This document shows, piece by piece, positions 17,736-32,603 of a DNA stretch of 32,782 nt. The first letter of the stretch is position 1, and each line of letters starts with the position of its first letter. The translations under genes were made by a program, and so were the position numbers. This stretch comes from Bacteroidales bacterium (GTDB lineage Bacteria; Bacteroidota; Bacteroidia; Bacteroidales; UBA7960): NCBI GenBank assembly GCA_007129255.1, contig SKVW01000154.1:1-32782 (forward strand). Reading direction: 5' to 3'. The notes under the pieces are model-generated. The model was not told the DNA's origin. It made no database searches and worked only from the letters and a program-made list of their open reading frames with translations.

Positions 17736-20700
17736 TTATCTAAGGATCAGTTTGCCGCTTTTAACAAATGGACGGTGGTCACCTCTTACCTCAAAACGGT
17801 AAAAGTATATTCCGGTGTTGTGGCTTCCTTTCCTGATAGCAACCTCATGCATTCCGGCATCAAAAAACCTGTCGGTAATGACTTCAACCACCTGCCCGTG
17901 AGTATGGTAGAGGCTCAACCTTACCTGTGCCTCCCGGGAAAGCTCAAAAGGAATGATAGTCACCTCACTGAAAGGGTTGGGAGATGGGGTGCCGACAAAG
18001 ATATTCCCGCCGGGGTCCCAGATATTTAAGGCCGTTTGATCTGAAACATTCAGAATATAAGGTTCATCAAGGGTTCCGGCTTGTTTGAGAGCGCTAAAGG
18101 TCATGGTTTCTTCCAGATCCAGGAGTTGTTGTTCATCCTGAGACCATAATCGGAAATGTATTGACTCCCCTTCTTTTTGGTCTGAGCCAATGGTCAGGAA
18201 AATTTTCCCGTCGTGATCGAGCATGGGTGCGGCCATTCCACGGCACTCATCCCCTGCAAATGCATAAACCACATCTTTAGGGTTCAGGGAAAAAATACCT
18301 TCAGGTAATTCCAGCTGTGCCAGCAGCATCATGCCATATTGTTTAAAACTTTCGGGATAAATCCCTGCCGGAGATGAAAAGGTTTGGAACAACGGTTCAG
18401 CACACAGGTTTTTATTTTCAGGAAATACGATCGTGGCGGAATTGCTGAAATTCAGAATGTAACCTTCACCAGGACAAAGCTGGGTAATGGATCCCACCCA
18501 AAGTCCCAGATCGGCATTGTATGCGGAAAACCCTGACTGGTTAAGGATTCTGTCATTATTCTGCGGCAGGGGCGAAATATTTTCAAGCGCCTGATTGATA
18601 TCCATACACTCCTGCAGTGGATAACCCATCCAGGAAAAGCCGGCATTGACCTCAAGTGGCAAAACTTCCAAAGGTTGTCCTTGCAGGATCATGTTTTGGT
18701 CGCTGCAAAGGAAAAGTTTATACATCTGCATGGGGTCAAGGGTGGTTAAGCTGCCAAGCCAGAGGTCAAGGCTCTCATTGTAGGAAGCGAAAGCACCCTG
18801 TGCAATGAGCTGATCTCCCTCGCAAGGTTCAAGGTCTTGCAGAACGTTGTTTACGCTGAATCCACCAGGATCCAGATTGATTGAAAACCAATTGTAGCCC
18901 TGTCCGAAAGAAAGAAGCAGCTCCTGCAGTTGCTGGGCAAAACTTACCTGTATAGTATGGTCGCTTTCTACCTGTGAAAAGGTGTAGGAATAGGTTACCT
19001 GCCCATGGGCTTCCGGTACCGGATTGCCATCCACCAGCAAAAGCTCTATAAGAAATCCCGGATCTGCAGTTATGTCAAAGATCTGGTTTTCTCCGGGGTT
19101 TACTTCAATATTACCTTCCGGCACAATTTCTCCACCTTCACCACCTTCCGATACAATGATGAAGGGAGCCGCTGTGTATTCAATCTTAAAATTATCAATC
19201 ACCCACCAGTTAATGTTGTAAGAATTTGCACCATGAGCCCTAAACCTCACATTAAAGACCTGGTTGGAAACCAGGGAGGTAATATCCATGGAATGGGTGG
19301 CCCATGAAATGCCTCCCCCGCTGTTGTTAAATTCCATTATTTCTGTCCAGGCACCCTGACTGAAAACTTCCACACTCATTTTTTCCAGGGTGTTGGAGGA
19401 AAAGTTGTTTAAAAAGAGATCATACTCAAGGGTAATGCTGGAGGTATTAACCATTCCGTTTATAGGAGGACTCTCCAGTGCAAAGGAATAATTGGTAACC
19501 GTGGGGTTCCAGGTAAACCTTACTGCAGGTGCCGGATTTCCATAATCGGTGGTAAACTGCCAGTTACCCTGGGAGGGATCAAAAGTCCAGCATTCCAGAA
19601 ATCCGTCATCGCTAAAACCCTCAAATACCGGCATGGTCAGGATTCCACAGGCAGTTGTGGCATCTGTGCCGGTTCCCCATGAATAAACCCCTTCCCCGCT
19701 TAAAGACCAAATACGGTAATAATAAATTGTGGAGGCATTCAACGCGCTATGCACAAAGTCCTGATCATTGCCGGAATAAATCACGGTTCCTCCACCGGGA
19801 ATCGTACTTCCCAAAGGGTAGGTATTCCCTTCTTCGGGAATGCCAAACTCTCCGTCGGCACTCCAGGCCAGCAACACATCATGCCCCTGGTCGTTTAAAA
19901 GCCATCCGAGCGCAATCTCAGTGTCGGAGATCGCAAAAGCCTCAAAGTTTTCAGGATTGGGTGGAAGGATCTGGTAAGCCTGTGTAAGCAGCAATGCCTG
20001 GTAAGCATTTAGCCTGCCACTTCCCAATAACCCCTGATAAGAGGGATTGGCCCCGTAATGATTGTCTGTGGTGGAAATAAGAATATCTTCCACCTCATCA
20101 GGAGAAAGGGTTCCATAAGCCAGCGAAAGCATAAGAGCTGCAACCCCCGACACATGGGGGCAGGCCATGGATGTGCCCTGGTAATAATTATAACTGTTTC
20201 CGGTGATGGTGCTTAAAACTCCCCGCTGGGCTACATTATTGGTTTCTCCTCCGGGAGCAGAAATATCTATCCATGTGCCGAAATTTGAATACCATGCTTT
20301 GGCATCCTGGTTGTTGGTGGCAGCCACGGCCATGGTACCGGAGTAATAGGCAGGATAATAGGCAGATGAAGAATTGCTGTTGCCGGCAGCAAAAATGGTA
20401 ATACCCCCTGACATGGCATCTCCCCCACCATTCACATTAAAATAATCAATGGCATCCAGCACGCTCTGTTCATAATATCCTGGAGAGGTATAACTCCAGC
20501 TGTTTTGAGAGATGGAGGCATTATTATCGGCGGCATATATGGGTGCTAGATGAAAGCCTCCCTGGCTGGATGAAGTAAAAACCTGGCAGGACATAAGCCT
20601 TACCCCGTCTCCGGTCCCGGAACCTCCGGCAATGCCGGCCACGCCGGTATTGTTGTTGCTTACGGCCGCTACGGTACCGGCAACGTGCGTACCATGGTTA

Positions 20701-21479
20701 CCGGGTTCTATGTTGGAAGTATTATTAACAAAGTTATAACCGATACCGCTCCACATGTTACCTGAAAGATCAGGATGGTTCTGATCGATTCCGCTGTCAA
20801 TGATTGCAACTACCACATTGTTGTTTCCTTTTTCAATTTCCCATGCGGCAGGAAGGCTGATATCCGAACCCAGGGTGCCGCCCTGCTGTCCGGTATTGTG
20901 GTAATGCCATTGGTTCACAAACTGGGGGTCGTTGGGAAACCAGTCGTTTGATTGTTTATTGTCGGTTTCATTTTCATCGGTCAGATACTGCCGGTCTGAA
21001 CCAAATACGGATTCTTTTTTTAAAATGGGTTCCGCAATTTCAATATCCTTAAGGCTGCCATACTGAATTACCGCCTCCCGGATATCGGTTTTTGTATTCA
21101 CCCGGAGCAGGTACCAAAGGTGAAAACCCCATGCCCTGTGCCGTTCAGAAAATTCGTTATCCAGGGCAGGGCTCAAAAAATAGGGTGTTGCCTCAAAAAC
21201 TCCAAAATGGTTATTCAGGCGGTCCACTTCCTCCAGCTGAAACTCAACAACTCCCTTATGGTTGACAACAAGCGGGTCCTGATCAAGGTGAGCAGTATGT
21301 CGCCCTGTAAACTTAACCAGAAATACTCCCTCTTCCAGAGCTTCAGCGGGCAACTCCCTGTAATTTATGGGCGGTCGTTCACCACGGTTTACTTCATACA
21401 AATGGTTTCCGTCTGCCTCTGTTATCAGGCTCCCAAAACAAATAAGCAATAAACACAAGGTAAAATGGAGTTTTTTCAT
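17736..21479 (-). CDS. Subtilisin-like (S8) serine protease, T9SS-secreted, multidomain
   Basis: This 1247-residue exoprotease has a signal peptide (1-24) and a propeptide-like region (about 45-155). The S8 catalytic domain (about 205-500) has an intact triad: Asp228 (IIDSG), His262 (NHGTHVAGT) and Ser437 (GTSMACPHVSG), with oxyanion Asn367 (AAGNS). Then come an Fn3-like domain (508-612), a jelly-roll/adhesin-like domain (about 615-770) and a short beta repeat domain (773-848). Two tandem copies of a W-rich repeat follow (about 860-938 and 945-1018; paired FASYNESLDLWLGSL / FSAYNADLGLWVGSI), then a GDECRGMA-containing domain (about 1030-1145). The C-terminal T9SS sorting domain (1164-1247) has PSPNPFSE and ends in SGKLILR. 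It should be exported by T9SS and attached to or released from the cell surface. Confidence 0.95.
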   Translation of the reverse strand: MKKLHFTLCLLLICFGSLITEADGNHLYEVNRGERPPINYRELPAEALEEGVFLVKFTGRHTAHLDQDPLVVNHKGVVEFQLEEVDRLNNHFGVFEATPYFLSPALDNEFSERHRAWGFHLWYLLRVNTKTDIREAVIQYGSLKDIEIAEPILKKESVFGSDRQYLTDENETDNKQSNDWFPNDPQFVNQWHYHNTGQQGGTLGSDISLPAAWEIEKGNNNVVVAIIDSGIDQNHPDLSGNMWSGIGYNFVNNTSNIEPGNHGTHVAGTVAAVSNNNTGVAGIAGGSGTGDGVRLMSCQVFTSSSQGGFHLAPIYAADNNASISQNSWSYTSPGYYEQSVLDAIDYFNVNGGGDAMSGGITIFAAGNSNSSSAYYPAYYSGTMAVAATNNQDAKAWYSNFGTWIDISAPGGETNNVAQRGVLSTITGNSYNYYQGTSMACPHVSGVAALMLSLAYGTLSPDEVEDILISTTDNHYGANPSYQGLLGSGRLNAYQALLLTQAYQILPPNPENFEAFAISDTEIALGWLLNDQGHDVLLAWSADGEFGIPEEGNTYPLGSTIPGGGTVIYSGNDQDFVHSALNASTIYYYRIWSLSGEGVYSWGTGTDATTACGILTMPVFEGFSDDGFLECWTFDPSQGNWQFTTDYGNPAPAVRFTWNPTVTNYSFALESPPINGMVNTSSITLEYDLFLNNFSSNTLEKMSVEVFSQGAWTEIMEFNNSGGGISWATHSMDITSLVSNQVFNVRFRAHGANSYNINWWVIDNFKIEYTAAPFIIVSEGGEGGEIVPEGNIEVNPGENQIFDITADPGFLIELLLVDGNPVPEAHGQVTYSYTFSQVESDHTIQVSFAQQLQELLLSFGQGYNWFSINLDPGGFSVNNVLQDLEPCEGDQLIAQGAFASYNESLDLWLGSLTTLDPMQMYKLFLCSDQNMILQGQPLEVLPLEVNAGFSWMGYPLQECMDINQALENISPLPQNNDRILNQSGFSAYNADLGLWVGSITQLCPGEGYILNFSNSATIVFPENKNLCAEPLFQTFSSPAGIYPESFKQYGMMLLAQLELPEGIFSLNPKDVVYAFAGDECRGMAAPMLDHDGKIFLTIGSDQKEGESIHFRLWSQDEQQLLDLEETMTFSALKQAGTLDEPYILNVSDQTALNIWDPGGNIFVGTPSPNPFSEVTIIPFELSREAQVRLSLYHTHGQVVEVITDRFFDAGMHEVAIRKGSHNTGIYFYRFEVRGDHRPFVKSGKLILR

Positions 21480-25426: not shown

Positions 25427-26320
25427 TCAAACCGGCCGGACCGGCTTCCTGGCCCTGATAAACCGGTCCTTACCGTTTATATCCTGCTTTAATTCTACTT
25501 TGATAAACCCATTACGCTCAATTAAATCAAAGGCTTTGGATCCCAGGCTCTCATTGATTTCAAAATAAATCCAGCCTCCCGGTTTTAGCCATTTCATCCC
25601 TTTCTCACATATTGCCCGGTAAAAAACCAGTGGATCCGTATCTTCAACAAAAAGGGCATGCTCGGGTTCATAATCCAGTACATTGGCCTGCATCTTTTTT
25701 TTTTCCTTTTTCATAACATATGGGGGGTTGCTTACCAGGAAATCAAGAAGAGGAATGGGTCGGAAATCACTTAAAACATCCATCAAGATAAAACTAACTT
25801 CTACATTGTTTATCAATGCATTATGTTTTGCTACTTCAAGTATGATTTTTTTATAATCGCAAGCCAGAACTTCAGCACCCGGGAGTTTGGCAGCAAGACT
25901 AACAGCAATGCATCCGCTACCAGTACCAACATCCAGAATGGTCATTTTCCTTTTCTCACGGGAAAGCTTTTTTCGAATGTGTTCCAATAACCATATTACC
26001 AATTCCTCGGTTTCCGGGCGGGGAATCAGTACCTGGGGACTTACTTTAAATTCAAAATCCAAAAAGGTAGTTTTGCCGGTAATGTATTGTACAGGCTCTC
26101 CCTTAACCAGGCGGTTAATCCCCCAGTGTAATTGCTGAATGCAGGATTCAGATAAAGGAGCTTCAGGGTACAACACCCTTTGGTCGGTTGCAATGCCACA
26201 GCAATGCTCAAACAATTCCCTTCCAAGGGCATAAGCCTCTTTTGCAGGGAAATGCCGGGCCAGGGCTTCGGTAAGCCAGCGCCAGACCGTGGCCGTTTTA
26301 TTGTCAACAGGCAAAGTCAT
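25427..26320 (-). CDS. prmC: Peptide chain release factor N5-glutamine methyltransferase
   Basis: PrmC methylates the glutamine of the GGQ motif in release factors RF1 and RF2. The 297-residue protein has the usual helical N-terminal domain (about 10-85) and IPRPETE (99-105). The SAM-binding motif is DVGTGSG (130-136), and NPPY at 198-201 positions the glutamine. All match the family, as does the length. It is convergent with the aldolase gene, 36 bp away, and divergent from the first DUF3857 gene. Confidence 0.94.
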   Translation of the reverse strand: MTLPVDNKTATVWRWLTEALARHFPAKEAYALGRELFEHCCGIATDQRVLYPEAPLSESCIQQLHWGINRLVKGEPVQYITGKTTFLDFEFKVSPQVLIPRPETEELVIWLLEHIRKKLSREKRKMTILDVGTGSGCIAVSLAAKLPGAEVLACDYKKIILEVAKHNALINNVEVSFILMDVLSDFRPIPLLDFLVSNPPYVMKKEKKKMQANVLDYEPEHALFVEDTDPLVFYRAICEKGMKWLKPGGWIYFEINESLGSKAFDLIERNGFIKVELKQDINGKDRFIRARKPVRPV

Positions 26321-26482: not shown

Positions 26483-28501
26483 ATGTTTGCCTCCCGCCTC
26501 CTTTTTGCAATTTTTATTGCCTTCTTAATTTCTGCCCATACCGGTTTTTCCAGCCCTTTTGAATTTGGAAACATTTCCAATGAAGACCTTGATCTGGAAA
26601 AATACCGGGAGAAATACCCTGACGATCATGCCGTAATGATTGGAGATATTGGTGAATGTCGGTTTGTTTATAACAACAGTACCGATCGTTTCCAGTTTGA
26701 ACTTCAACGCACTTTTCGATTGATGGTACTCAATGAGTCGGGAACGTATCTGGGTGATTTCACCATTCCCTATTACGCAACTGATGAAAACAGCGAGTCC
26801 ATTTCCCGCTTCCGGGCTCATATTTATAATCCCGGAGAACGCAGGCCCGATCGCGAACGGGTAAGGCAACGTCACGGGTATACTGAACATGTCAGAGACA
26901 ATTGGCATGAGCTTAGGTTTGCACTTCCCAATGTTAAACCCGGATCCCTAATTGAAGTAAGGTATACCATTACCTCAGATTTTCTTTCGCACCTGCGAAA
27001 CTGGCAATTTCAATATGAATTTCCGGTGGAGCACAGTGAGTTTTCTTTGTCCCTTTTATCCATATTTAGCTATAGGATGAACTACCGGGGATTGATCGAA
27101 TTGGATGAAGCGGAAACAAGGGAGGTGGTTGAAAATATCCGGGTAAACCGTTCTGCCAGTGCTTATGGTACTGCACTGGATGCCGGACATCTCAATGTAA
27201 ATATTGATGCTAAGGAGTTCCGCTGGTTTGCAAAGAATATACCGGCTTTTCGCGAGGAACCTTTTACGGACAATATCAATAACTATTTGGCATCCATGAA
27301 ATTTGAAATGGTGGGCGAACAATGGCCGGACAGACCTCCAAATAATTTTACCCGAACCTGGAATGATGTGCAGAAAGGCCTGTATGAACACGACCGTTTT
27401 GGTAGCTTTCTGAGCTCTGCCATGTTTGAAGTAAATAAACTCGCCCAATTTGAAAAAGAAAAAAGTGAAGAAGAGATCATGGAAAAAGCCCTTGAGGTCA
27501 TTCGGGAAAAAGTCAGGTGGAACAATCGCTCTTCCTATCTCACGAATCAATTTCCTTATGCCGTTATTGAATCCGGAAGCGGTAATGCCGCTGAAATAAA
27601 CCTGCTGCTCATTGCCTTTTTAAAGAATTATGGATTGGATGCCAGGCCGGTTTTGCTAAGTACGGTAAAAGGAGGCCATCTCAATTACAAAAGCCCTACC
27701 CTTAAGTTTGACTACCTTTTGGCGGCCGTTAAAAAACAGAACGACGATTATGTGCTGCTGGATGCCACAGACCCCGTTTTACCGCCAGGGTATATCCCAC
27801 CCCGTGTTATCAATGGCAAAGGAAGAATCATTACCGAAAATTCATCGGAATGGATCCCCCTGATTAACCCGGACTTCCCAAAAACCGTGAAAACCTATAA
27901 CCTGGTGCTGGAAGAAAATGGAAGGCTATCAGGGCGAATGGAGTATACATATCATGATTATGCTCGCCACCTTTTAAAAGGCCATATCGAAACCAGGGGT
28001 AAAGAATGGTTTTATGACAGAACTCAACAAGATCTGGAAGCAATCCTCGAGCAATTTGATCTAATAATCCCTGAAAACCCCAACAATCCTATCGTAGCGG
28101 AAGCTTCCTTTTCAGTTGAACCTTCTCAAAGCCAGATACCAAATGAATTTTATTTTTCACCCCTCCTGTTTGAAAGCCTGAAAGAAAACCAATTTCGCCA
28201 GGAAGAAAGACAATATCCTGTTTACTTTGGACAACCCAGCCAAACAGAAGTAATCATTAATCTTCAATTTCCTAAGCAATTTTCCCTGGATCATTTACCG
28301 GACGATTATCAGGTAAAATGGAAAAATGAATTGGTTTATGAGTTTTTTTCAGAAAAAAAGGGAGAAAATCGAATTCAGCTCAGAGCCAATACCATTATTG
28401 GCTCACCTGTCTTCGAAGCAGCTAATTATAAACAGGTTAAAGAGTTTTTTGACCATATAGTTAATAAAAACAGGGAACAAATTGTTTTTATCTCTAATTG
28501 A
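26483..28501 (+). CDS. DUF3857 / transglutaminase-like protein, catalytically degenerate (copy 1)
   Basis: The 672-residue exported protein has a signal peptide (about 1-24), a DUF3857 domain (about 45-245), a transglutaminase-like core (about 295-435) and a C-terminal DUF3858-like beta domain (about 470-665) ending in KNREQIVF. In the core, the position of the nucleophile Cys (GDC in active relatives) is GNA with Ala369, and the His (FNH) is Tyr411 (FDYLL). Asp427 in LLDATD remains. It should therefore not be an active transglutaminase or peptidase and may bind peptide or glycan. It carries EHDRFGSFL (302-310), shared with copy 2 but not copy 3. Its cellular role is unknown. Confidence 0.85.
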   Translation: MFASRLLFAIFIAFLISAHTGFSSPFEFGNISNEDLDLEKYREKYPDDHAVMIGDIGECRFVYNNSTDRFQFELQRTFRLMVLNESGTYLGDFTIPYYATDENSESISRFRAHIYNPGERRPDRERVRQRHGYTEHVRDNWHELRFALPNVKPGSLIEVRYTITSDFLSHLRNWQFQYEFPVEHSEFSLSLLSIFSYRMNYRGLIELDEAETREVVENIRVNRSASAYGTALDAGHLNVNIDAKEFRWFAKNIPAFREEPFTDNINNYLASMKFEMVGEQWPDRPPNNFTRTWNDVQKGLYEHDRFGSFLSSAMFEVNKLAQFEKEKSEEEIMEKALEVIREKVRWNNRSSYLTNQFPYAVIESGSGNAAEINLLLIAFLKNYGLDARPVLLSTVKGGHLNYKSPTLKFDYLLAAVKKQNDDYVLLDATDPVLPPGYIPPRVINGKGRIITENSSEWIPLINPDFPKTVKTYNLVLEENGRLSGRMEYTYHDYARHLLKGHIETRGKEWFYDRTQQDLEAILEQFDLIIPENPNNPIVAEASFSVEPSQSQIPNEFYFSPLLFESLKENQFRQEERQYPVYFGQPSQTEVIINLQFPKQFSLDHLPDDYQVKWKNELVYEFFSEKKGENRIQLRANTIIGSPVFEAANYKQVKEFFDHIVNKNREQIVFISN

Positions 28502-28580
28502 TTAAACACCACTAGTTAAAAGTCTACCATAGTTTATCTTTAATTATTTTTATTTTTTATTCCTTCAAAACAACTGCTTT

Positions 28581-30611
28581 ATGACCACACTCAACAAAAC
28601 CAAACCATGGGGAATCCTATGCATTTTATTTTTATTTATGACCGTTTCCCTGATCAATGCCCAGGCCCAGCCTTTCCGTGTTGGTCGTGTATCGGCCGAA
28701 GATTTTATCCAGGGGGAATATGAAAAAGACCCTGATGCATCTGCTGTCATCCTGTATGATTACGGAAACACTTATATGGACCTAGATACAAGAAGCGGCA
28801 GTTTTTATTATGTATACGAAAAGCAGATCCGTGTGCAAATTCTTAATGAAGACGGTTATGACTGGGCTGATTTTTCCATTCCGCTATTGGATATCCGTGG
28901 AACCCGGGAAAACATGTCCCGCTTCAGAGGACATGTGCACAATCTGGATGGCAGCCGGGTAAGGTCTACCCGCATAAGATCAAGAGACGGGATGACCGAA
29001 AGAACTTCGGAAAACCTGAGGACCATTAAATTCAGCTTCCCTGATATACAGCCAGGGTCAATCGTTGAATACCGGTACACCATTCGCTCTCCTTTTTTAT
29101 ACAACCTGCCCTCCTGGCAATTTCAGCATACCGTTCCTGTTGAATACAGCGAATACAATCTTGAACTTCCGGAATTTTATAATTATCAGTTTTACATGCA
29201 GGGCTATGAGACCCTGGATATTGCAGAACAGGACGTTGCTTCTATGACCTATTTGCTTCCCATGGGCAATCGTCCAAGAGATGGTACCGGCCGGGTAACT
29301 GCCTCAACAACTACCTACAAATGGGTAATGAGCGATGTTCCTGCCATGCGCAGCGAGCCATATACCAGTAACATCCGCAATTTTTTATCCATGATCCGCT
29401 TCGAGTTGTCCAGTATTAATTTTCCGGGGCAAACACCCATACCTTATACCCTCAGCTGGCTGGATATTGACGAGCGCCTCAGGGAAGATGATCGTTTTGG
29501 AGGTTTTCTTTCCGGAAGCAGGCAGCTGCGCCGGGAAATGGAAGACCTTGATGAAACAGCCACCACTGAAACAGAAAAAATTGTCGCAGCATTGAATTAT
29601 ATTCATGACAATATCCGCTGGAACGAGCGAAGGGGAATTTATGCCAGTGGCTCTCCCCGCAACATATTGCGCGAAGGAACAGGCAATGCCGCAGATATTA
29701 ATCTTATGCTTGTAGCTGCGTTAAGACAACTTGGAATAAATGCCGACCCGGTGGTCTCCAGTACACGCGATAATGGCATTGTCATCCCGTCTTTCCCGAC
29801 CATGTCCAGGTTTAACTATGTGTTGGCTGCCCTAACCCTGGATGATGGAGAAGTAATGTTGCTGGATGCCACCGATACTTTTTGTCCTCCCGGAATGATC
29901 CCTGCCAGGGCACTTAACGGGGAAGGACGCAGGATAAAGGATAACAATGCTGAATGGGTGAAGCTGGAAACAGATTTTCCTTCTCTTGAAAAAAGGAATT
30001 ACCATTTTTCTATAGACCAACAAGGTAACCTCAAAGGAAACTCAAGGGCCGAAAACAGCGACTACGCTGCATACTCCATTCGGCGTGATCTGGAAAGGGA
30101 ATTAAACCAGGATGATTATATTAAAAGTTTGCAGGAAGAGGTACCCGGATTAGAGATCACTTCACTCACCATAGAGAATGCAGAGGATCTGGACCAACCC
30201 ATTATTAAGGAAATGGACATGGAACTGGCCGAAGCCATAAGCCATGCCGGGGATATGATCCTTTTCACTCCTTTGCTTTTTGAGGCGCTGGAAGAAAACC
30301 CATTCCGAATTGATGAAAGAAACTATCCTGTGGACTTTACCGTGCCTTTCAAAGAGCAAATTTCCATGATTTTTGAAATACCCGAAGGTTTTGAAGTGGA
30401 TTTTTTACCGGAATCCCTCAATATCACCTATGATGATCAGGCCAATTTTGATTTTGCAGTCCGCTTAAATGAAAAAAATCAAATTGAGGTACATTCTACG
30501 TTTGAAGTGCTCAAAACCATGTTTTTACCCTCAGATTATGATGGACTGAAAAGTTTTTTCGGGAAAATGGTTGAAAAGCAAACCGAACAAATCGTATTAA
30601 CTGCTATATAA
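28581..30611 (+). CDS. DUF3857 / transglutaminase-like protein, catalytically degenerate (copy 2)
   Basis: The 676-residue protein has the same architecture as the preceding gene: signal peptide (about 1-29), DUF3857 (about 50-250), transglutaminase-like core (about 295-435) and a DUF3858-like C-terminus ending KQTEQIVL. The core again has GNA (Gly368-Asn369-Ala370) in place of GDC and FNY (Tyr413) in place of FNH, while Asp429 in LLDATD is kept. The REDDRFGGFL motif (301-310) parallels copy 1, so copies 1 and 2 are a closer pair, likely from tandem duplication. The 79-bp AT-rich gap from copy 1 has no clear terminator, so the two may be co-transcribed. Confidence 0.86.
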   Translation: MTTLNKTKPWGILCILFLFMTVSLINAQAQPFRVGRVSAEDFIQGEYEKDPDASAVILYDYGNTYMDLDTRSGSFYYVYEKQIRVQILNEDGYDWADFSIPLLDIRGTRENMSRFRGHVHNLDGSRVRSTRIRSRDGMTERTSENLRTIKFSFPDIQPGSIVEYRYTIRSPFLYNLPSWQFQHTVPVEYSEYNLELPEFYNYQFYMQGYETLDIAEQDVASMTYLLPMGNRPRDGTGRVTASTTTYKWVMSDVPAMRSEPYTSNIRNFLSMIRFELSSINFPGQTPIPYTLSWLDIDERLREDDRFGGFLSGSRQLRREMEDLDETATTETEKIVAALNYIHDNIRWNERRGIYASGSPRNILREGTGNAADINLMLVAALRQLGINADPVVSSTRDNGIVIPSFPTMSRFNYVLAALTLDDGEVMLLDATDTFCPPGMIPARALNGEGRRIKDNNAEWVKLETDFPSLEKRNYHFSIDQQGNLKGNSRAENSDYAAYSIRRDLERELNQDDYIKSLQEEVPGLEITSLTIENAEDLDQPIIKEMDMELAEAISHAGDMILFTPLLFEALEENPFRIDERNYPVDFTVPFKEQISMIFEIPEGFEVDFLPESLNITYDDQANFDFAVRLNEKNQIEVHSTFEVLKTMFLPSDYDGLKSFFGKMVEKQTEQIVLTAI

Positions 30612-30628
30612 TTCTTTTTATAACTTGC

Positions 30629-30659
30629 TGCACCGGCCTTCGGAATGGCGGCCGGTGCA
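30629..30659. repeat. Strong GC-rich hairpin between copies 2 and 3
   Basis: TGCACCGGCC (30629-30638) and GGCCGGTGCA (30650-30659) form a perfect 10-bp stem with an 11-nt loop. Neither strand has a good T run after it (CTTTACC on plus; GCAAGTTAT on minus), so it is a weak candidate as a classical terminator. It lies between the stop of copy 2 (30611) and the start of copy 3 (30678) and may be a processing or transcript-stabilising element. Confidence 0.7.
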
Positions 30660-30677
30660 CTTTACCGCATTCTCACT

Positions 30678-32603
30678 ATGAAAAAAAACCTCCATATATC
30701 CCGGCTTTTGGGTGCTTTACTGACGGTTTTCCTGTTGGCTTCTGGCTCAGCCTGGTCGGGAAATCCTTACGATGTGGCCAACATTCCGGATCATCTCAAA
30801 GAAGATGCCATTGCCGTGATCAGGGAAAGGCATGAAACCTTTGAAGTCAGATCCGAGAGGAGAGCAAGCTATACCGAGCGTCGCGTCATTACCATCCTGG
30901 AGCGCAGGGCCGAAGGACTGGCCGATCTTTATGTTCAATATGACGACTTTCGCAGGGTAAGTAACCTTTCCGGAACCATTTACGATGCCAAAGGAAACAA
31001 GATCCGCGATCTGAGAAGCCGGGAATTCATGGATCGCAGCGCAGCTTCTTCTTTCTCTCTCTATGAAGACAACCGGTTGATCTATACCGATATTTATCAA
31101 AGTCAATTGCCCTTTACCGTTGAATTTGAATATGAGGTAGATTACCGCAGGGGTTTCTTTTTCCCGGATTGGTTTCCCCAAATGGTAGCCGGGGTTTCGG
31201 TGCAACAAACCAGCTTTACCCTTATCACTCCCCGAGAAATGGAATACCGTTACCAGGTTTACAACCATGATGATCTCGAATCGGAAATTTCCATGCCGGC
31301 CAGGAGAATGGCCCGCAAATGGGAACTTAAAGAATTACCGGCTATAAAGTCCGAGAGTTACATGCCCCCTTTTCACCGCATTGCAATCCACTTGCTGGCA
31401 GGTTCCAACGATTTTCAATATGACCGTGTCCCCGGCGATATGAGCAACTGGGAAAATTATGGAAAATGGATAGCAGGGCTGAATGAAGGCCGTCAGTCCC
31501 TGCCGGAAAAAACCCGCCAGAAACTGCATGCCCTGACCGAAGGCATTGAAGATCAGATGGAAAAAACAAGAATAATTTATGAATATATGCAATCCCGCAC
31601 CCGTTACGTTAGCATTCAGCTAGGGATTGGGGGTTTTCAACCCTTCGATGCAGAAACTGTTGACGAAACAGGATACGGGGATTGCAAGGCACTGGTAAAT
31701 TATACCAAATCCATGCTGGATGAAGTAGGGGTCAGTTCATATTATACATTGATTCACCATGGAGAAGCAAGGATACCCGCGAAACCTGAATTTTCTACAA
31801 AAGCCTTTAACCACGTGATTCTTTGTGTTCCTGTTGGCCAGGATACCCTTTGGCTGGAATGTACCAACAACAGGATACCGATGGGGTACATCGGAAGCAA
31901 CAACGCAAACCGCCATGTTTTGCTCATCACCCCTGAAGGGGGTAAACTTACACGCACCCCTGCATACGGACATGAGGAAAACCACCGTTTGCGAAAAATT
32001 GAAGCCCGTTTACATCCCAATGAGGATGTGGAATTCCAAAAAAACACCTTGTATAAAGGCCTGCGACTGGGTGACCGGCTTGGGGTTTCTTTCAGGGGAA
32101 GCGGCGATCAACTTCGATATTACCAGGAAAATCTCGGGATCAATAACCCTGAAATCCTGGATATTTCTTTTAACCTTTTGCAAGGACAACTCCCGGTGCT
32201 GGAAGAGCACATTCATGCAAAAACCAACCATTATGTGTCCAGGGCTGGAAACCGCATTTTACTGCAACCCAACATCCTTTCAAGGCGAGAGTCGGTACCC
32301 CCGGTTACCAGCAAACGGATCCATCCCATTTATTTAAATGCAAGCGCACTTTATACCGATACGGTAATCTGGGAAATACCCGAAGCCTATGAAATTAGCT
32401 TCATTCCGGAGGATTTGGAAATTGATAATGAATTTGGTTATTACAGGGCACATTACAGGGTTGAAGAAAACAGGTTGGTTTTTGAAAGGCAGTATTATAC
32501 CCGTAGGGGCACACATCCTCAGGAAAAATATGATGAATTTGTTGAGTTTTTCCGGACCATAGGCAATACTGACAGGGCACAGGTGATAATCACCCGCCAG
32601 TGA
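30678..32603 (+). CDS. DUF3857 / transglutaminase-like protein with Cys and His retained (copy 3)
   Basis: The 641-residue protein has a signal peptide (MKKNLHISRLLGALLTVFLL, about 1-28), DUF3857 (about 40-230), a transglutaminase core (about 290-400) and a DUF3858-like end. Unlike copies 1 and 2, the core keeps GYGDCKAL with Cys336 and FNHVI with His379. The third triad position is Glu394 (LWLECTNN) rather than the usual Asp. It could be an active cysteine-type hydrolase or transferase in the periplasm or at the surface. I reject the upstream ATG at 30645, because it lies in the hairpin and would bury the signal peptide behind 11 residues. Confidence 0.87.
   Translation: MKKNLHISRLLGALLTVFLLASGSAWSGNPYDVANIPDHLKEDAIAVIRERHETFEVRSERRASYTERRVITILERRAEGLADLYVQYDDFRRVSNLSGTIYDAKGNKIRDLRSREFMDRSAASSFSLYEDNRLIYTDIYQSQLPFTVEFEYEVDYRRGFFFPDWFPQMVAGVSVQQTSFTLITPREMEYRYQVYNHDDLESEISMPARRMARKWELKELPAIKSESYMPPFHRIAIHLLAGSNDFQYDRVPGDMSNWENYGKWIAGLNEGRQSLPEKTRQKLHALTEGIEDQMEKTRIIYEYMQSRTRYVSIQLGIGGFQPFDAETVDETGYGDCKALVNYTKSMLDEVGVSSYYTLIHHGEARIPAKPEFSTKAFNHVILCVPVGQDTLWLECTNNRIPMGYIGSNNANRHVLLITPEGGKLTRTPAYGHEENHRLRKIEARLHPNEDVEFQKNTLYKGLRLGDRLGVSFRGSGDQLRYYQENLGINNPEILDISFNLLQGQLPVLEEHIHAKTNHYVSRAGNRILLQPNILSRRESVPPVTSKRIHPIYLNASALYTDTVIWEIPEAYEISFIPEDLEIDNEFGYYRAHYRVEENRLVFERQYYTRRGTHPQEKYDEFVEFFRTIGNTDRAQVIITRQ

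Follow-up and report, generated by a model that had tools for sequence, protein, structure and literature searches.

Proteins with the DUF3857 domain are an already known kind, as are pseudoenzymes of the transglutaminase (TG) fold and pairs of an enzyme with a pseudoenzyme. The closest described representative is Protein Data Bank (PDB) entry 3KD4, BDI_1141 of Parabacteroides distasonis, a 'putative protease', which is taken to be the structure mentioned in the Pfam descriptions of DUF3857 and DUF3858. Three tandem genes of this kind, here called c1, c2 and c3, lie on one strand of contig SKVW01000154.1 of a Bacteroidales bacterium (GenBank assembly GCA_007129255.1); the window analysed here, 32,782 nucleotides, is this complete contig (contig 69 of the assembly), and the array stops 179 bases short of its end. 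The Cys and His of a catalytic enzyme are in place in c3, whereas c1 and c2 both have Ala and Tyr instead. We find that clusters of two or more such genes hold, almost without exception, exactly one active member, and we regard it as on balance probable that the locus encodes a periplasmic enzyme–pseudoenzyme module, in which c3 is catalytic, c2 is its dedicated partner and c1 is a second pseudoenzyme.

3KD4 was the only PDB sequence found by profiles of the c1/c2 family or the c3 family (5.5e-12 with the c3 profile). It differs from c3 in that the profile alignment sets Pro against the catalytic Cys, which groups it with the inactive kind. It is also the best structural match (Foldseek 1.2e-27 for c2 and 4.3e-31 for c3) of the AlphaFold2 models, which were built for c2 (59 sequences, predicted local distance difference test score 92.0, predicted template modelling score 0.85) and c3 (61 sequences, 91.8 and 0.85, respectively) as single chains and read for secondary-structure positions rather than side-chain distances. 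Both models have the three-domain fold of 3KD4 (VIA: Z 26.2, root-mean-square deviation 3.9 Å over 488 residues for c3; Z 19.6, 5.1 Å over 482 residues for c2), and both alignments extend to the C terminus even though DUF3858 is matched there only below threshold. After 3KD4, the nearest solved TG-domain fold to c3 is LapG, a periplasmic TG-like cysteine protease (PDB 4FGO, 4FGQ; Z 12.0, 3.4 Å over 133 residues), but the match is confined to the TG core of c3, residues 276–426. LapD, the partner of LapG, is not known to be a pseudoenzyme copy, and their complex has a regulatory role. PDB entry 4u65 is titled as a complex of LapG and a LapD orthologue's periplasmic domain. Erythrocyte protein 4.2 (PDB 7UZS; Z 9.6 to c3 and 8.3 to c2) is a non-catalytic TG-fold member with Cys changed to Ala, as in c1 and c2, but it is eukaryotic and shares only 5% sequence identity with c3 and 12% with c2. 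The TG-fold core is likewise found in peptide:N-glycanase (1X3W; Z 11.2 with c2), an enzyme, and in Rad4/XPC (2QSF; Z 8.3 with c3), Rad4 being a non-catalytic binding relative; both are eukaryotic, occur in the cytosol or nucleus and have other domains. Cys-His-acid enzymes of the TG fold mostly act on amide bonds. PMC4866520 is in line with this; according to it, the third triad residue in the superfamily is usually Asp or Glu, odd triads occur, and the vasohibins, TG-like proteases with Cys-His-Ser, show that this third residue can vary, while Cys and His are retained, unlike in c1 and c2.

Two sets of genomes were surveyed. The first comprised 98 genomes (the window's own and 97 relatives), 47 of which had a DUF3857 match; 80 regions were analysed (G096:C24 was left out, and a weak match, G047:C15, yielded no protein), giving 145 proteins, of which 139 (at least 380 aa) were aligned. 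The second joined 80 regions from the window's phylum, where 121/296 sampled genomes had DUF3857 matches and the regions were chosen from part of the match list, mostly higher-scoring, to the best 80 of 591 hits in a contig scan for relatives of c3; of the 349 proteins in these 160 loci, 333 (at least 400 aa) were used. A protein was called active if Cys and His were both in place, and one protein (G037), cut short before its His, was assigned to the actives by hand. After removal of 6 identical clusters from 238, 232 remained, 195 of them with at least two genes within 2.5 kb. Exactly one active member was present in 193 of these 195 clusters. When labels were shuffled 2000 times, the number of clusters with one active member averaged 94 and reached 116 at most, although the shuffles ignore relatedness and the clusters are not independent, as related genomes share them. 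In coding order, with p for inactive and A for active, the patterns were pA (113), Ap (48), ppA (17), App (10; seven cases come from one genus code, g65), pAp (4), pApp, pApA and pp (one each), besides single genes (A 24, p 13). The two exceptions are a pair of divergent inactive genes from a short contig (G032) and the double pair pApA. The latter, L161 (G259:C15), consists of two complete pairs in a row and is the sole cluster with two active members. The 32 clusters patterned ppA, App, pAp or pApp extend the pair by inactive genes only, and the rule held in all three subfamilies seen. Thus, an active member beside non-catalytic paralogues, suggested in an earlier note made from the window's sequence alone, is a real conserved unit, but that unit is one and only one active gene accompanied by at least one inactive gene, and not the inactive-inactive-active order whose conservation the note proposed to survey, a minority form represented by the 17 ppA clusters.

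The active and inactive genes of the window's kind (type I) are tied together in several further ways. Among the 98 genomes they occur together in 29 (the window's own and 28 relatives), and the active gene occurs alone in none. For seven further genomes, where no intact partner had been seen next to an active gene, a search found the inactive gene in all seven: cut or broken close by in three, 2.6 kb away in one and elsewhere in three. The arrangement is operon-like: in each of the 158 type I pairs both genes are on the same strand, and the gap has a median of ~6 nt, a lower bound because it was counted up to the first Met in the open frame. Moreover, the distance matrices of the partners correlate (r 0.77 over the 158 pairs, against a maximum of 0.14 in 500 permutations), and in every genome that holds two full pairs (7/7), the partner next to an active gene fits it better than the partner from the other pair does. 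Within the window, the partner that mirrors c3 is c2 (fit to c3 of 0.78, compared with 0.63 for c1). Since type I actives were not found without a partner and extra copies are inactive, the partner appears to be needed by the enzyme rather than to be a spare copy.

The catalytic positions of the three window proteins (Table 1) agree to the residue with the reading of the earlier note, in which Cys became Ala and His became Tyr in c1 and c2 with Asp kept, and c3 retained Cys and His with Glu at the Asp position. The numbering of c3 fits the ATG at 30678, the preferred start (641 aa) of an open reading frame (ORF) open from 30645 (652 aa). The description of that Glu as divergent did not hold: in 171 weighted sequences of the c3 family Cys and His are at 100% and the third residue is Glu in 97% and Asp in 3%, so that Glu394 is the norm of the subfamily and not a defect, and a damaged triad was rejected. 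Cys and His are present in all 173 untruncated type I actives. The proteins had also been described as exported DUF3857/TG-like/DUF3858 proteins. This stands for the tandem same-strand ORFs, for the Sec-type signal peptides without a lipobox (judged by eye) and for DUF3857 (35.5 bits in c1, 45.5 in c2 and 84.8 in c3; cut-off 24.6), but DUF3858 is below the Pfam cut-off of 27 bits in c2 (13.3) and c3 (13.1) and has no match in c1. Transglut_core is over its cut-off in c2; c1 scored 20.1 against 23 in the first search and 23.3 in a whole-genome search, and the family was not detected in c3 in Pfam searches of either the window proteins or the whole genome.

Across 205 aligned sequences (weighted), the c1/c2 family strongly conserves the emptied site. 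Asp429 (c2 numbering) is Asp in 99%, Gly368 is conserved in 97%, Asn374 in 94%, Asn412 in 91%, Ser394 in 92%, Thr395 in 90% and Arg396 in 82%. The three former catalytic segments carry a mean of 2.53 bits compared with 1.54 in other TG-core columns (p 0.0004, 5000 permutations); adding the 394–399 motif, chosen after being seen, raises the mean to 2.65 bits. According to the models, the site A370/Y413/D429 of c2 is in register with the triad C336/H379/E394 of c3 at the secondary-structure level, because the matching residues begin or follow the same helices and strands in both: residue 429 of c2 stands directly after strand 425–428 and residue 394 of c3 directly after strand 389–393.

Table 1. 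Genes and catalytic positions in the window, and loci of the two other subfamilies
Feature	Position or loci	Strand	Remark
c1	26483..28501	+	predicted exported DUF3857/TG-fold pseudoenzyme (A-Y-D), 672 aa; paralogous clade separate from that of c2
c1 Ala369	27587..27589	+	nucleophile position, from alignment
c1 Tyr411	27713..27715	+	His position, from alignment
c1 Asp427	27761..27763	+	third triad position, from alignment
c2	28581..30611	+	predicted exported DUF3857/TG-fold pseudoenzyme (A-Y-D), 676 aa; clade mirroring the c3 clade
c2 Ala370	29688..29690	+	nucleophile position; begins helix 370-383 in model
c2 Tyr413	29817..29819	+	His position; begins strand 413-419 in model
c2 Asp429	29865..29867	+	third triad position
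c3	30678..32603	+	predicted exported DUF3857/TG-fold enzyme, Cys-His-Glu intact, 641 aa
c3 Cys336	31683..31685	+	nucleophile; begins helix 336-349 in model
c3 His379	31812..31814	+	begins strand 379-386 in model
c3 Glu394	31857..31859	+	third triad position
Type II	L034, L036-L044, L048		one Cys-His-Asp member and one degenerate partner per locus
Type III	L063, L068, L082, L090, L102, L104, L106-L108		one Cys-His-Asp member and one degenerate partner per locus

Under the reading we favour, c3 would be the sole catalytic subunit, a TG-fold cysteine enzyme with an apparent Cys-His-Glu triad that, judging from its superfamily, most likely forms or cleaves an amide bond via a thioester intermediate, as a peptidase, isopeptidase or acyl transferase. 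c2, with the same three-domain fold and a strongly conserved site free of a nucleophile, would be the dedicated non-catalytic partner, most likely binding c3 and probably also part of the substrate; binding by that site fits type I, where the emptied site is conserved. c1 may be an anciently diverged second pseudoenzyme that joined the array, probably as an alternative partner or a third subunit. The signal sequences point to the periplasm for all three. No result pointed specifically to cell-surface peptides or peptidoglycan stems, the substrates mentioned in the earlier note, and the neighbouring genes are weakly conserved. A broader version, to be taken as tentative, is that paired DUF3857 enzymes across Bacteroidota are obligate heteromers in which the emptied site forms a substrate or acyl-acceptor pocket and the active centre is shared between the live and the dead copy, duplication adding dead copies only and so widening specificity.

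Several observations weigh against the module. Of the 33 genomes that carry type I genes, four lack a full c3-type gene while retaining the inactive family. One of these, G036 (85% complete), does contain a fragment of the active type, and G034 and G030 are 86–87% complete, but G069, at 99%, is a true exception. In six relatives, c1-type genes sit in clusters that lack an active gene, several of these clusters being near contig ends, so that c1 at least may exist apart. In 25 triplets the far inactive copy fits the active one better in five and equally in three; near and far copies thus often fit alike. Co-inheritance by linkage alone would also yield mirrored trees. No fused active–inactive pair was found, a third large ORF (G096:C24, 1253 aa) lying outside the ORFs examined: ORFs of 1273 and 1290 aa, considered as fusions, were rejected and provide no fusion evidence for contact, because each holds TPR repeats and a single DUF3857/TG unit. 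The ratios of non-synonymous to synonymous substitution rates (dN/dS) against G045 (0.129 for c1, 0.112 for c2, 0.105 for c3), by which c1 and c2 appear to be under purifying selection, are rough, dS being 1.4–1.6 and near saturation. Finally, the partner site is not conserved in types II and III, where a structural or regulatory role fits better than substrate binding.

A first alternative is that the inactive proteins are regulators, an inhibitor or a chaperone pair, which hold c3 off until a signal arrives, rather than substrate-binding subunits. It accounts for there being just one active gene but a varying number of inactive ones, and for c3-type genes depending on c1/c2-type genes; in addition, LapG, a near fold of the c3 TG core, has the entry titled as a complex with a LapD orthologue. 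By itself, however, it leaves the conservation of the former catalytic segments in the c1/c2 family unexplained, and an inhibitor would not need the full shared three-domain fold; we consider it unlikely, if worth keeping in view. Slightly less credit is due to the idea that the copies have independent jobs and are neighbours merely because tandem duplicates stay linked. The c1-type clusters without an active gene and the four inactive-only genomes speak for it, but duplication alone predicts active-active neighbours, of which the 195 clusters contain none save the one double pair, and c3-type genes were never found without c1/c2-type genes in the 29 and seven genomes described above; the partner fidelity within genomes likewise speaks against it.

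That c1 and c2 are alive through a non-canonical catalytic residue seems improbable. Ser is the commonest residue (49%) at the nucleophile column of their family and Asp is almost invariably kept, and odd triads are known in the superfamily (PMC4866520). Yet both window copies have Ala, and other residues seen at this column in the family are Val (19%), Ala (15%) and Gly (5%), while the His column is Tyr in 71% and His in only 14%. A compensating Cys or His was rejected: the only remaining Cys are C59 in c1 and C14 and C435 in c2, and no family column exceeds 47% Cys or 50% His, in agreement with the earlier note, which had named replacement residues as the finding that would overturn its view. 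As for decay of duplicates, to which the loss of two of the three catalytic residues in c1 and c2 could point, it is very improbable and was rejected on the low dN/dS of both copies (0.13 and 0.11, like 0.11 in c3), the more so as the loss is clade-wide and the type I inactive family is also present in other orders of the phylum.

If the rule holds, the enzyme expressed alone may fail, and the clusters, in which nature has paired live with dead copies many times over, lend themselves to studying what a pseudoenzyme does for its enzyme; the conserved pairing suggests that the dead copy has a functional part in the system. Annotation can also mislead: in this genome Transglut_core picks out c1 and c2, which are inactive, but not the active c3, so that the transglutaminase label is automatically put on the wrong genes, and 3KD4, solved as a 'putative protease', has no nucleophile either. 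Although widespread, DUF3857 is named in only one passing sentence in the literature searched. Open-licence papers in PubMed Central yielded neither the phylum-wide one-active rule, which subscription papers may hold, nor anything relevant on inactive TG-like proteins in Bacteroidota.

The three subfamilies differ in their sites and gene order. Type I combines actives with GYGDCKAL..FNH..WLECT (Cys-His-Glu) and partners with GN[SA]ADIN..NY..LLDAT, whereas the actives of types II and III are Cys-His-Asp and the site residues of their partners vary freely. All 31 clusters of types II and III are active-then-inactive; of the type I pairs, 113 are inactive-then-active and 17 the reverse. A profile of the type I partner family collected 210 inactive proteins, and its score threshold was also passed by two Cys-His-Asp proteins that stand alone (L175, L176). 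In a tree of 54 rows, type I and type III partners join (98/98) and type II partners stand beside their own actives (85/64); a single clade of all inactive copies was not rejected (p-AU 0.066). The Ala of c1 is a local change: within the c1 clade only the window and G045 have it, and the other 15/17 members have Ser; elsewhere this clade adjoins a sister active clade or sits in the clusters without an active gene. A DUF3857 match was also obtained outside the phylum, in Caulobacter vibrioides, as part of a control search. Five type III pairs (L068, L082, L090, L102, L104) adjoin a gene of ~1100 aa, which in L090 has TPR and MORN repeats. Lone active genes of other subfamilies exist as well, two of them joined to TPR repeats: L089:4566-8384 and L064:6107-9976 encode proteins of ~1280 aa with TPR repeats and one active DUF3857/TG unit, with no partner gene alongside.

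The inactive type I proteins have a further mark of their own. In 166/205 of them the residue after the predicted signal peptide, at the column of c2 residue 28, is Gln, and no corresponding column was seen in active type I members. PMC10653852 describes a Bacteroidetes Q-rule, Gln after the signal peptide of Sec-exported proteins, to which c2, but neither c1 nor c3, conforms. Few proteins of either group show lipobox-like patterns (3/205 inactive, 7/171 active).

Beyond the array, the window's own assembly (3.14 Mb, 95% complete) contains no DUF3857 or Transglut_core match. An NCBIfam search of the window proteins gave nothing over a cut-off, promoter and terminator signals were no more frequent than in shuffled sequence, and the conserved-neighbour analysis of DUF3857 loci returned small groups only. 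The closest named relatives of c3 (74–75% identity) come from Bacteroidales and Bacteroidia assemblies, one with a 'CSSed' isolate name, which we take to denote soda lake sediment. The same contig carries a large S8 subtilase gene (1247 aa, 17736-21479, minus strand). A prmC-like methyltransferase gene (25427-26320, minus strand) is divergent from c1, and a gene of the same cluster adjoins DUF3857 arrays in three other genomes (G015, G023, G027), pointing to a stable locus.

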